The notes below the pieces were generated by a model. It was given only the letters and a program-made list of their open reading frames with translations, was not told the DNA's origin and did no database searches. DNA of 64,000 nucleotides, taken from positions 124,001 to 188,000 of the forward strand of contig CALSOZ010000001.1 in NCBI GenBank assembly GCA_943788095.1, written 5' to 3'. Positions 43,582-47,133 of this stretch are shown here, piece by piece. The stretch is from an uncultured Flavobacteriaceae bacterium (GTDB lineage Bacteria; Bacteroidota; Bacteroidia; Flavobacteriales; Flavobacteriaceae). Position 1 is the first letter of the stretch. Every line of letters starts with the position of its first letter. The position numbers and the translations under genes are program-made.

Positions 43582-43627
43582 TAGATTTGATTTAAGCATG
43601 CTGAAAGTCAAACAACTTTTGTGCCAT

Positions 43628-43656
43628 AGAAAAAAGCCTTACAAATGCAAGGCTCT
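43628..43656 (-). terminator. Rho-independent terminator of the ATP synthase operon
   Basis: On the minus strand AGCCTT-gcatttgt-AAGGCT forms a stem followed by a T tract (complement of 43628-43634), 28 bases after the atpG stop. Confidence 0.75.
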
Positions 43657-43683
43657 TCGATATTATAATTTTAAATTAAATTT

Positions 43684-44538
43684 CTAACCATTCAGCGCTT
43701 CCGCCCCTCCAACGATTTCTAAAATCTCATTGGTAATGGATGCTTGACGTGCTTTGTTGTACGTCAATTTAAGCTGGTCTCTGAGCTCCGTGGCGTTGTC
43801 CGTTGCTTTGTGCATCGCCGTCATACGTGCGCCATGCTCGCTTGCAAAACTATCACGAATCGACTTATAAAGCTGTGTTTTTAACGACTTTGGTATCAAG
43901 GTTTCTACAATCTCTTCTTTAGACGGCTCAAAAATATAATCGAGGTTTGCATTGGTATCGCCTTCTATGGGTTCAATAGGCAAAAACTGCTCGGTCATAA
44001 TTTCTTGGGTCGCCGCATTTTTGAATTTATTGTAAATAATTTCAATCTTATCGAATGCTTTGGATTCAAATTGTTCCATCAGCATCTCTGCAATTGCAGC
44101 CACATTGTCAAATGTTAAATCGTCATAAACAGCACTTTGGTTGGAGACGATCTCAAAGTTTTTTGAGAGGGCGTCATTCGCTTTTTTTCCAATCGCCACA
44201 ACCGATACGTTCGCATCGTAACGTTCTGCAACCACATTGGCTTGTTTGATAATGTTAGAATTAAATGCCCCACAAAGTCCTCTGTTAGAGGTAATCGCTA
44301 CAATAAGTACGTTTTTGATGTCGCGTTGTTCTGAATATTTACTTCCAGAATCGGCGTCCAAAGTGGCACTGAGGTTTTGTAAAAGCTCCGTGAGTTTATT
44401 CGCATAGGGACGCATCGCTGTGATGGCATCTTGTGCTTTTTTCAACTTAGCAGCCGATACCATTTTCATGGCACTTGTAATCTGCATCGTTGAAGATACG
44501 GATGCTATTCTATTTCGGATTTCTTTTAAATTTGCCAT
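43684..44538 (-). CDS. atpG: ATP synthase F1 gamma subunit
   Basis: Central rotor shaft of the F1 head, 284 residues. The N-terminus MANLKEIRNRIASVSSTMQITSAMKMVSAAKLKKAQ and the C-terminal helix (FASEHGARMTAMHKATDNATELRDQL) form the antiparallel coiled-coil axle; the middle NVLIVAITSNRGLCGAFN domain faces the c-ring. It is the last gene of the operon. Upstream, 434 bases carrying a four-helix-bundle element separate it from atpA. Confidence 0.95.
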   Translation of the reverse strand: MANLKEIRNRIASVSSTMQITSAMKMVSAAKLKKAQDAITAMRPYANKLTELLQNLSATLDADSGSKYSEQRDIKNVLIVAITSNRGLCGAFNSNIIKQANVVAERYDANVSVVAIGKKANDALSKNFEIVSNQSAVYDDLTFDNVAAIAEMLMEQFESKAFDKIEIIYNKFKNAATQEIMTEQFLPIEPIEGDTNANLDYIFEPSKEEIVETLIPKSLKTQLYKSIRDSFASEHGARMTAMHKATDNATELRDQLKLTYNKARQASITNEILEIVGGAEALNG

Positions 44539-44542
44539 TTTT

Positions 44543-44972
44543 CAAGTTATCAGTGATGAGTTAAGAGTTTTTAATGATTGCCACTAAAATTCTAATTAAC
44601 TCTTCACACTTATTCATCAATTCTGTTGGAACGTCTCTTCCAGTAGCTTCAAGAATTTCTAACCAATATTTGGTTTCATCAGCTTCTTTTAAAGCAATTC
44701 CAAATTTATTTTTAAAGTCTTTTTTACTAACTCCTCTTTGAGCTTCTCTTGTATTGGCGCCAATACTCGTTCCGCTTTTTAGCAATTGAGAAGCTAACTC
44801 AAAATCCTTATTTTCTTTTAATTTATCCGTAAAATGAACAATCTCGCAAGCAAACTGAAAACTCTTTACTCGAATTGGACTGTTATTTAAGGACATTTCC
44901 TTTAAGTTTTTAGTATGAAGTTAAAGTTATGAGCTTGTAACTCTGAACTCATCACTCTAAACTCTAAACTTG
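44543..44972 (-). mobile_element. Inverted-repeat-bounded insertion carrying a four-helix-bundle gene
   Basis: The 430-base segment fills the atpA-atpG gap almost exactly: its right end touches the atpA stop codon and its left end is 4 bases from the atpG start. Three collinear complementary pairs close it: CAAGTT (44543-44548) with AACTTG (44967-44972), AGTGATGAGTT (44552-44562) with AACTCATCACT (44946-44956), and AGAGTT (44564-44569) with AACTCT (44939-44944). Read as RNA these make a long stem, like the rRNA intervening sequences that carry the same protein family. It is not a known insertion sequence and encodes no transposase. Confidence 0.6.
44561..44896 (-). CDS. Four-helix-bundle protein, 23S rRNA intervening-sequence family
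   Basis: A 111-residue protein of the S23 ribosomal/four-helix-bundle family, known from intervening sequences in 23S rRNA genes and structurally related to the Avd protein of diversity-generating retroelements. Family-typical segments are VKSFQFACEIVHFTDKL, ELASQLLKSGTSIGANTREAQRG, KKDFKNKFGIALKEADETKYWLEIL and a final helix with ELIRILVAIIKNS. The gene lies within the ATP synthase operon between atpA and atpG, inside paired inverted repeats. Its cellular role is unknown; a nucleic-acid-binding role fits the family. Confidence 0.85.
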   Translation of the reverse strand: MSLNNSPIRVKSFQFACEIVHFTDKLKENKDFELASQLLKSGTSIGANTREAQRGVSKKDFKNKFGIALKEADETKYWLEILEATGRDVPTELMNKCEELIRILVAIIKNS

Positions 44973-46554
44973 TTAATCTTTATACTTTCCTGATAATTCT
45001 TTTGCAACTGCTGTTAAGGTATCTGTCACTTCGTCCGTTAATTTACCAGATTTTAAGGTGGCTAACACATCGCTGTGCTTGGCTTTTAAAAACTCGATAT
45101 ATTCGGTTTCAAATTCTTTTACTTTGTTGACAGGAACTGCTCTCAAAAGGTTCTTTGATCCTGCATAGATGATCGCTACTTGATCTTCTACTTTGAAAGG
45201 ATCGTTTTGTGCTTGCTTTAAAATTTCAACGTTACGTCTTCCTTTTTCAATCACATTTAAAGTGACGGCATCTAAATCAGATCCAAACTTAGCAAAGGCT
45301 TCCAATTCACGGAACTGTGCCTGGTCTAATTTTAAGGTTCCAGATACTTTTTTCATTGCTTTGATCTGTGCATTTCCACCCACACGAGATACCGAAATAC
45401 CAACGTTAATTGCTGGACGAACACCAGAATTAAACAAATCACCATCTAAGAATATTTGACCATCCGTAATCGAAATTACGTTGGTTGGAATATAAGCAGA
45501 TACATCACCTGCTTGTGTTTCAATAATTGGTAAGGCTGTTAAAGAACCACCACCTTTTACAATCGGCTTTAAGGAGTCTGGTAAATCGTTCATGTCTTTT
45601 GCAATTTCATCGTTGTTGATGACTTTTGCTGCACGCTCTAATAAACGGGAGTGTAAGTAAAATACATCTCCTGGATACGCCTCACGTCCTGGAGGACGAC
45701 GTAATAAAAGAGATACCTCACGGTACGCAACGGCTTGTTTTGATAAATCGTCATAGACAATCAATGCTGGACGACCAGTATCTCTAAAATACTCACCAAT
45801 AGCGGCTCCTGCAAAAGGTGCATACACTTGCATTGGTGCGGGATCCGAAGCATTTGCTGCGACAATAGTTGTATAGGCTAAGGCGCCTTTTTCTTCTAAT
45901 GTTTTAGCGATCAATGCCACTGTAGACGCTTTTTGTCCAACTGCTACATAGATACAATAGACTGGTTCCCCAGCATCGTAAAATTCTTTTTGATTTAAGA
46001 TGGTATCAATACAAACGGCTGTTTTACCAGTTTGTCTGTCACCAATCACCAACTCACGTTGTCCACGTCCTACTGGGATCATGGCATCAATCGACTTGAT
46101 CCCTGTTTGTAAGGGCTCTGTTACAGGCTCACGAAAAATAACCCCAGGTGCTTTACGCTCTAAAGGCATTTCGTAAAGTTTTCCTTCAATAGGACCTTTA
46201 CCGTCAATCGGTGCGCCAAGTGTATCAACCACACGACCAACAATTCCTTCACCAACATTGATCGAAGCAATACGTCCTGTACGTTTTACTGTGGAGCCTT
46301 CCTTTATTACATTAGAAGCTCCTAAAAGTACGATACCAACATTGTCTTCTTCAAGGTTTAATACAATCCCTTCAAGATCGCCTTCAAATTGTACAAGTTC
46401 GCCATACTGTCGCATTCGAAAGCCCGTATGCACGTACAATACCATCCCCTACAGTTAATACAGTTCCAACCTCATCTAAGGAAGCTGTTGCTTCGAAACC
46501 TGAAAGTTGTTGTTTTAAAATTGCTGATATTTCAGCTGCTTTTACTTCTGCCAT
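44973..46554 (-). CDS. atpA: ATP synthase F1 alpha subunit, frame broken by one extra base
   Basis: Regulatory nucleotide-binding subunit of F1. ATG 46554 opens [19 protein letters not shown] and reads correctly to AYGLSNA, after which the frame breaks; [14 protein letters not shown] continues in another frame. The excess base is at 46410-46413 (a C in GTCGCATT). The repaired protein is 526 residues, with Walker [42 protein letters not shown], and the C-terminal domain intact. The span is 1582 bases, three times 527 plus one. Because the gene is needed for oxidative phosphorylation, I treat the break as a sequence error. Confidence 0.92.
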
Positions 46555-46595
46555 CTTAATTTATTTTATACCTCTGATTGAATCTCAGTATAGTT

Positions 46596-47133
46596 TTAGT
46601 TTATTGTAAATTTTCGTTTTAACGTATTTAATTGGTTCGAGACACTCGCATCATATTGCTGATCTCCAACGCGTAAAATGAAACCCCCGAGGATGTTTTC
46701 ATCTACAGAATTGCTAAGGGTCACCTCCTTTGTGGTTAAGGTTTTAAGCTTTGCCATGACTTTGGCTTCTAATTCTGAAGTCATCGGGATGGCGGTGGTT
46801 ACAAAAGGCATTTTCTTTATTGTTTGCTAGATCGTATAGAATCCCGTATTGGGAGGCGACTTGACTTAATATATCAACTCTATTATTAGTAACAAGAATA
46901 TTAAACAGCGATTTACTTTCTGAACTTACAGAAGGAAATATAGCTTTCAATACAGCTTCTTTTTCAGATAGTTTGACCACGGGGCTTTTGAGTGCTGCTT
47001 CCAAAGAAGCATTGTCTGCAATCGCCTGACCAATATGTGCCATATCTGCTTGCACTGCCGCTGCTTGTTTGTTATCTGATGCTAAGCTTAATACGGCTTT
47101 TGCATATCTAATTGCTGCTCTTGTTCCTGCCAT
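46596..47133 (-). CDS. atpH: ATP synthase F1 delta subunit, frame broken by one extra base
   Basis: Stator subunit joining F1 to the b stalk. The repaired protein has 178 residues: AGTRAAIRYAKAVLSLASD at the N-terminus, SLFNILVTNNRVDIL in the middle, and the C-terminal LGGFILRVGDQQYDASVSNQL. The frame breaks at the run of four A at 46803-46806 on the plus strand; three would join YDLANNKENAF to VTTAIPMTSELEAK. The span is 538 bases, three times 179 plus one. It ends 41 bases before the atpA start and begins 6 bases after atpF. Confidence 0.9.

Follow-up and report, generated by a model that had tools for sequence, protein, structure and literature searches.

An IVS-like cassette with heptad-repeat arms and an S23-family gene between atpA and atpG in a Flavobacteriaceae bacterium, and its relatives at other operon junctions

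The window, a 64,000-nucleotide stretch of contig CALSOZ010000001.1 from an uncultured Flavobacteriaceae bacterium, carries ATP synthase genes on its minus strand. The gap between atpA and atpG is filled by a segment in which a gene for a 23S rRNA-intervening sequence protein (IVP) stands between two complementary arms, so that the order on the minus strand is atpA, 5′ arm, IVP gene, 3′ arm, atpG. The features, in window coordinates, are as follows.

44973..46445, minus strand: atpA (ATP synthase alpha), the upstream cistron; its TAA stop (44975-44973) directly adjoins the 5′ arm
44543-44972, minus strand: the segment, 430 nt, from the base adjoining the atpA stop to 4 nt 5′ of the atpG ATG (44538)
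44939..44972, minus strand: 5′ arm, 34 nt, heptad array CAAGTT-TAGAGTT-TAGAGTG-ATGAGTT-CAGAGTT
44561..44896, minus strand: IVP gene, 111 aa, matching PF05635 and TIGR02436
44543..44569, minus strand: 3′ arm, 27 nt, AACTCTTAACTCATCACTGATAACTTG, pairing with the 5′ arm by sequence
43684..44538, minus strand: atpG (ATP synthase gamma), the downstream cistron, whose ATG follows the 3′ arm after 4 nt

The initial annotation had described three collinear inverted repeats and a flush fit with the atpA stop codon. Both descriptions are exact. The stop directly adjoins position 44972, and the repeats pair CAAGTT (44972-44967) with AACTTG (44548-44543), AGTGATGAGTT (44956-44946) with AACTCATCACT (44562-44552), and GAGTT (44943-44939) with AACTC (44569-44565). 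The annotation did not contain the heptad structure: the arms are tandem 7-base repeats, (NNGAGTT)n against (AACTCNN)n, and the 5′ arm is the longer by one 7-nt unit (34 vs 27 nt). The 3′ arm is laid out as AACTC-TT-AACTCATCACT-GAT-AACTTG (44569-44543), and the end of the IVP gene (AAC TCT TAA, the last two codons and the stop) falls inside it, with TT-AA overlapping the stop. RNAduplex gave the arm duplex an energy of -28.7 kcal/mol, which was reached by none of 1000 dinucleotide shuffles (minimum -24.3) and at none of 159 minus-strand positions in the window with matching geometry. The entire segment folds at -102.6 kcal/mol (z -3.73), with 0 of 100 shuffles as low.

The segment thus has complementary ends that would form a stem around an ORF, as an rRNA intervening sequence (IVS) has, and differs from one in lying between atpA and atpG rather than inside an rRNA gene. 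An Rfam scan of 43600-46500 returned no match up to E 1. The IVP gene is the only ORF of at least 60 aa inside the segment, which leaves no candidate for a transposase or recombinase there. Upstream, the atpA ORF starts late compared with relatives (matching from residue 8; open frames of about 524-553 aa), and atpH is apparently split over overlapping ORFs at 46744-47133 and 46596-46811 (window 46430-47133, minus strand); these two irregularities look like frameshifts or assembly errors.

The IVP gene is intact, and its product matches PF05635 (E 5.1e-22, 78.5 bits against a cut-off of 33.8, profile positions 7-105 of 106) and TIGR02436 (E 1.4e-28, 99.3 bits, cut-off 24), which bears out its assignment to the S23/IVS family, that is, 23S rRNA-intervening sequence protein / four helix bundle. 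The nearest solved structure is 2RLD (E 1.7e-22, a sequence relation only), and by eye an SD-like AAAGGA stands just 5′ of the ATG. PF05635 is present in 192 of 249 Flavobacteriaceae genomes, with up to 18 matches each, and in none of 14 control genomes; across many Bacteroidota such genes are annotated under names such as "four helix bundle protein". Relatives occur in 25 plasmid records, all distant (one at 60-80% identity, 24 below 60%) and mostly cyanobacterial by the first names listed, and in two phage records, both below 60% identity. In the available part of a study of Flavobacterium psychrophilum biofilms, a gene annotated as of IVP type is among those differentially expressed (PMC5787105), so IVP-type genes can be transcribed.

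PF05635 is also described, in the accessible portion of PMC10053308, as resembling Avd, the related protein family of diversity-generating retroelements. The IVP gene might then be an accessory part of such an element, or of another retroelement acting in trans. We consider this highly improbable, given that its neighbours are operon genes and that, in contrast to Avd systems, the cassette has no reverse transcriptase and the genome (75% complete) no RVT_1 match.

Besides the copy at atpA-atpG, the genome of the window has another full IVP gene, located at fadJ-fadA (L011, G000:C12:1868-2176), and an IVP fragment match about 1.3 kb from it, apparently across fadA (L282, G000:C12:423-539). At L027, L022, L094, L100, L113, and L129, IVP genes (some of them cut by the locus end) flank the thiolase gene fadA on both sides; a single operon can contain several consecutive cassettes.

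According to the initial annotation, known members of the family lie in rRNA genes. The copies read here lie elsewhere: in 107 of the 108 Flavobacteriaceae rows with both neighbours found, the IVP gene and the protein genes on either side of it are codirectional (106/107 after correction for one locus, L131, that was counted twice). The PF05635 sample behind this figure comprised 30 loci and 80 regions (one spanning two matches), or 110 loci, which were the best-scoring of roughly 150 matches listed and not a random draw; the atp loci were taken in as well. An ORF filter dropped three of them (L081, L110, and L132, genes with a stop), and the 119 gene rows include L131 twice, several fragments, and 11 rows without one neighbour. 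Placement was similar in a phylum-wide set of 19 loci, where both neighbours were found for 17 and ran in the direction of the IVP gene in 15 of these, and at six of six further loci occupied by relatives of the atp lineage. The copies fall into 40 neighbour-family pairs, some with one neighbour missing. By eye, from the neighbour sequences, we take the junctions to include fadJ-fadA (30 tree rows), two parts of metH, panB-rluA, sdhA-sdhB, pabB-tilS, the borders of hemE, trpG-trpD, rfbB-rfbA, groES-groEL, hisH-hisA, argH, and two CoA-transferase subunits. A Flavobacterium columnare gene table, in the part available, has a four helix bundle protein flanked by guanylate kinase and a nicotinate adenylyltransferase in a phage region (PMC5524665), a placement that fits the intercistronic address; the accompanying text available makes no mention of arms.

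Complementary arms also surround other copies of the gene family. They do not share the CAAGTT...AGTGATGAGTT arms that the initial annotation had proposed as a search key; each junction has its own repeat unit, matched between both arms, such as (by eye) AGTATTG at fadJ-fadA, GGTTGTT at metH, and the 8-nt TTTGAAAC at the ctaA junction. We compared flanks in a single draw that took one element at random from each of 39 neighbour-pair classes; some classes repeat a junction already counted, one neighbour being missing, and this biases the comparison against the signal. The 5′ flank and the complement of its own 3′ flank had 293 6-mers in common, compared with 136.6 when partners were exchanged (sd 17.3, maximum 220, 20,000 permutations), and at least three shared 6-mers were found in 32/39 self pairs and 47.5% of exchanged pairs. 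The own 3′ flank was the best partner in only nine of the 39 classes, because many units are alike; among 110 elements, nine had no 6-mer in common between their own flanks. Duplex energies, obtained for 110 of the 119 rows, were -29.5 for self and -21.7 for cross, and self was the best of 40 duplexes in 21/110 (2.8 expected). Self-match of bases in the flanks peaked at lag 7 (0.428) and lag 14 (0.396), against 0.27-0.35 at other lags from 2 to 15. The 5′ arms resemble each other more within a junction than between junctions (5-mer Jaccard 0.129 vs 0.072), with hemL-hemE as an exception (0.017 within, 0.039 between). Arms that differ by site yet stay complementary are what would be expected if pairing is selected.

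Of 102 relatives found for the IVP lineage at atpA-atpG, we took the best 80, a set that overlaps the PF05635 genome sample and is not independent of it. Seventy-four of the 80 are located in atpA-atpG, in Gelidibacter, Bizionia, Flagellimonas, Kordia, Dokdonia, Salinimicrobium, Galbibacter, Maribacter, Winogradskyella, Polaribacter, and others, and also in Crocinitomicaceae. The heptad period is strong in these 74 loci (lag-7 self-match 0.534 vs 0.24-0.29 at other lags from 3 to 13), and in 68 of them GAGTT occurs at least once 5′ of the gene and AACTC at least once 3′ of it. In four of the five Crocinitomicaceae loci (L209, L211-L213) the 5′ unit is GAATT, and its 3′ counterpart is AATTC in three and, by eye, ATTC in L212, which is a change on both arm sides; the fifth, L205, has mixed arm units. 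Arms from the atpA-atpG set paired no better with their own partners than with those of other genera (P 0.38), because the unit is too conserved for that test, and covariation within this set therefore rests on the Crocinitomicaceae shift. In L146, L148, L151, L158, and L197, a 3′-type array also lies 5′ of the IVP start codon. Such a second array could give the 5′ arm two possible partners, like a switch; it was present (at least two AACT) in only 8 of the 26 loci with a long 5′ segment (61/74 loci examined), and we set the alternative pairing aside for that reason.

The IVP gene is intact at 59 of the 74 atp loci and interrupted or split in the alignment at the other 15, and the arms persist around interrupted genes (for example, L035, L040, and L046). 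Across the 59 intact loci, the distance correlation is 0.83 between IVP and atpG and 0.81 between atpA and atpG, and IVP fourfold sites are about as diverged as those in the host genes. In the closest IVP pairs, 0.92 of residues are unchanged against 0.68 of fourfold sites, and over the 59 intact rows 30 columns are conserved at 97% or more. By these measures, the IVP at atpA-atpG evolves about like atpG, under purifying selection, and the pattern as a whole speaks for long residence, selection on the protein, and repeated decay.

Lineages in the wider family stay for the most part at one junction. On a tree of 131 IVP proteins (118 columns; 66 of 128 inner branches open), 18 junction labels required 19 changes, the minimum being 17; shuffled labels averaged 74, and none of 200 shuffles was as low. 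A starred branch sets all 21 atpA-atpG rows to one side. Six unlabelled rows share that side, and the fidelity is not absolute: L216, L217, L218, L220, and L221, which were unlabelled in the 19-change count, nest with the atpA-atpG rows. Four of them, L216, L217, L220, and L221, together with L219 (absent from the tree), lie between two CoA-transferase subunit genes and have TTTGAAAA/TTTTCAAA arms; L218 lies between metH and metF and its arms are likewise of TTTGAAAA type. Since the nested rows sit at other junctions with arms of this type, the atp lineage must have changed both site and arms at least once.

The arrangement at atpA-atpG is far from universal, and since other copies of the family do have arms, neither of the results that the initial annotation had named as refuting its reading was obtained. 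We surveyed 140 genomes of 139 genera and could measure 135 atpA-atpG gaps, as lengths between tblastn match ends that include the stop codon and unmatched end residues. Only ten gaps are IVP-sized (397-464 nt; two of these in the genus of the window, and with the IVP gene confirmed for fetched loci only); one measures 788 nt, 97 fall within 40-179 nt, and 27 are shorter than 40 nt. Forty gaps were picked by hand and fetched, and 39 were folded (38 from the 40-179 nt class and one of 30 nt). Twenty-six of the 39 were more stable than mononucleotide shuffles at z <= -3; by eye, about nine hold heptad hairpins without a gene, and the gaps of L230 and L254 end in an apparent IVP gene 3′ end. In L223, L236, and L260, from other genera, the gap contains a different palindrome, TGTCATTCC...GGAATGACA, that by eye looks like a REP-like repeat.

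Many relatives, then, have a gene-less hairpin in the gap, where the stem may matter and the gene be incidental. The stem, with or without the gene, could be a host regulatory device that sets the ratio of atpA to atpG product, either by shielding the 3′ end of atpA or by dampening atpG; the IVP would then be a passenger or a stem-binding tuner. Besides the prevalence of mid-sized gaps, their stable folds, and the gene-less heptad arrays, purifying selection on the protein counts in favour of such a device, as does a scan of 44400-45100 for intrinsic terminators (a GC-rich hairpin followed by a T run), which found none. We nevertheless regard it as unlikely. The 27 gaps below 40 nt, and five of 13 same-genus loci with a 17-nt gap and no arm, mean that no stem is needed at atpA-atpG, and similar cassettes in many unrelated operons are ill suited to a role specific to ATP synthase.

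The same-genus loci supply the empty sites for which the initial annotation had called. The atpG locus was recovered from 13 of the 18 genomes of the genus: three have intact IVP genes, three broken ones, one has arms only, five have the 17-nt gap, and one ends with its contig. On an atpG tree with half of its inner branches open, the element needs three changes, and the species of the window is sister to one without the element (99/99; L032 with, L034 without). The five empty alleles (L034, L037, L041, L043, and L044) agree in their last atpA codons and have 17-nt gaps that resemble one another; in this they differ from the seven alleles that hold the cassette or its arms alone (L032, L033, L035, L036, L038, L040, and L042), and in 12 of 12 loci the presence of cassette or arms tracks a different atpA C-terminus (SGKYKD or SGKYND vs SSKYSA). 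Since empty and occupied alleles differ in both the atpA end and the gap, whole local alleles seem to have been exchanged. Within the genus, identical codons make up 0.84-0.98 of the IVP gene and 0.68-0.86 of the host genes atpA and atpG (ten pairs). In a control, the IVP excess recurred in 42/42 between-genus pairs (0.604 vs 0.503); because it is so general, we rejected it as proof of recent transfer. The within-genus excess hints at recent spread, with part of it due to composition.

The patchy presence, the consistent allele differences, and the codon excess would suit an element that actively moves, by homing or transposition, from one operon junction to another, with excision at the RNA level protecting the host. 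The presence of atp-lineage relatives at other junctions with other arm units, which means that lineages have changed site, and the distant relatives in the 25 plasmid records point the same way. Most lineages, however, stay at one junction, IVP and host genes diverge together over larger distances, and the codon excess is partly compositional. Nor does the cassette contain a nuclease, transposase, or reverse transcriptase ORF. Homing was set aside for lack of a nuclease and because IVP distances track those of the hosts, and no recent jump to a new site was seen among the copies compared. We therefore hold active mobility to be quite improbable. Of the mobile element that the initial annotation had suggested, past site changes (the five nested rows) and flips of presence between sister species survive; ongoing movement sits poorly with lineages that are mostly at one junction and track their hosts. 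The element is, we think, best described as a resident, either selfish or semi-domesticated, that rarely changes site and is not actively jumping.

The closest known parallel to this resident cassette is the IVS of 23S rRNA with an S23p/IVP ORF, as in Coxiella and Leptospira, which resembles it in length (430 nt here, 428 nt in Coxiella), four-helix-bundle ORF, and complementary ends. The available part of the Coxiella report describes a 428-nt IVS with an S23p ORF, a 28-bp stem, and tandem heptamers in the 5′ arm, its cutting by RNase III in vitro, and decay of the ORF (PMC4990558); the heptamers and the decay have their likeness in the cassette as well. The differences are that the cassette lies in mRNA between protein cistrons, has heptads on both sides in junction-specific units, occurs in several copies per genome in many genomes, and has RNase III cutting proposed by analogy.

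Because the anatomy matches the Coxiella IVS in all but the host RNA, we propose that a stem forms in the operon mRNA and that RNase III cuts it. The unit on which this mechanism would act consists of a heptad arm, an IVP/S23 gene, and a complementary heptad arm, in sense orientation between two operon cistrons. Within the polycistronic mRNA, the arms are predicted from sequence and folding to pair, looping the gene out on a stem of about 25 bp. RNase III, which acts on the Coxiella IVS in vitro (PMC4990558, as far as available), would be the most likely enzyme to cut this stem; its gene is present in the genome of the window, with a score of 164.0, just under the curated cut-off of 166.25. 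Cutting would release the IVP message and leave the atpA and atpG messages as separate molecules, with possible effects on expression, and the insert would cost the host little because the messages would be split in this way. The stem could also act without being cut, and the IVP protein may, at a guess, bind the stem of its own arms. The cassette belongs to a large, old, mostly site-faithful set in which IVP lineages and arm units go with particular junctions; at atpA-atpG its history is mostly one of descent with the host genes under purifying selection, during which it has often decayed, been lost, or had its local allele replaced by that of a close species. The initial annotation's picture of an IVS-like architecture in an mRNA setting gains support from a gene between complementary arms at atpA-atpG. 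The full reading, namely a resident, rarely site-changing intercistronic cassette that is the mRNA counterpart of the 23S rRNA IVS, with a stem that would carry the gene in its loop and that RNase III probably cleaves, has in our judgement about an even chance of being right.

Several other systems share some of these traits. REP palindromes with RAYT transposases also associate an intergenic palindrome with a small gene; in the cassette the palindrome encloses the gene, which reads in the direction of the operon, and there is no transposase. Insertions in 16S and 23S rRNA of CPR bacteria have the same protein domain inside the inserted segment, and differ in their rRNA hosts and in that most encode homing endonucleases, of which the cassette has none (PMC11270868, as far as accessible). 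The TAACTGA heptamer repeats of Beggiatoaceae, Cyanobacteria, and five Bacteroidetes are likewise 7-nt and intergenic, with many near start codons; they consist of one fixed unit, almost always direct, with no inverted arm or enclosed gene reported in the available part of the source (PMC4679880). In the open-licence literature, as far as its text was available, we found no account of genes of this kind placed between cistrons. What appears to be new is the systematic placement in mRNA with junction-specific heptad arms, the protein family and the rRNA IVS being known already.

With these results, IVP/S23 genes gain a consistent address, between codirectional cistrons, and a consistent anatomy, the heptad stems. 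The mechanism, in which RNase III would process the mRNAs of operons such as atp, fad, metH, sdh, and groES-groEL, is a testable one. If it is right, core operons of the phylum would be cut after transcription at inserted cassettes, and the puzzling rRNA IVS would gain a likely source. More broadly, and only as a tentative possibility that we lean against, Bacteroidota may carry a large family of mRNA intervening sequences in which IVPs and heptad arms co-evolve as junction-specific RNA-protein pairs, each lineage recognising its own unit and the stems processing mRNAs at cistron borders, with the 23S rRNA IVS as a minor branch that invaded rRNA.
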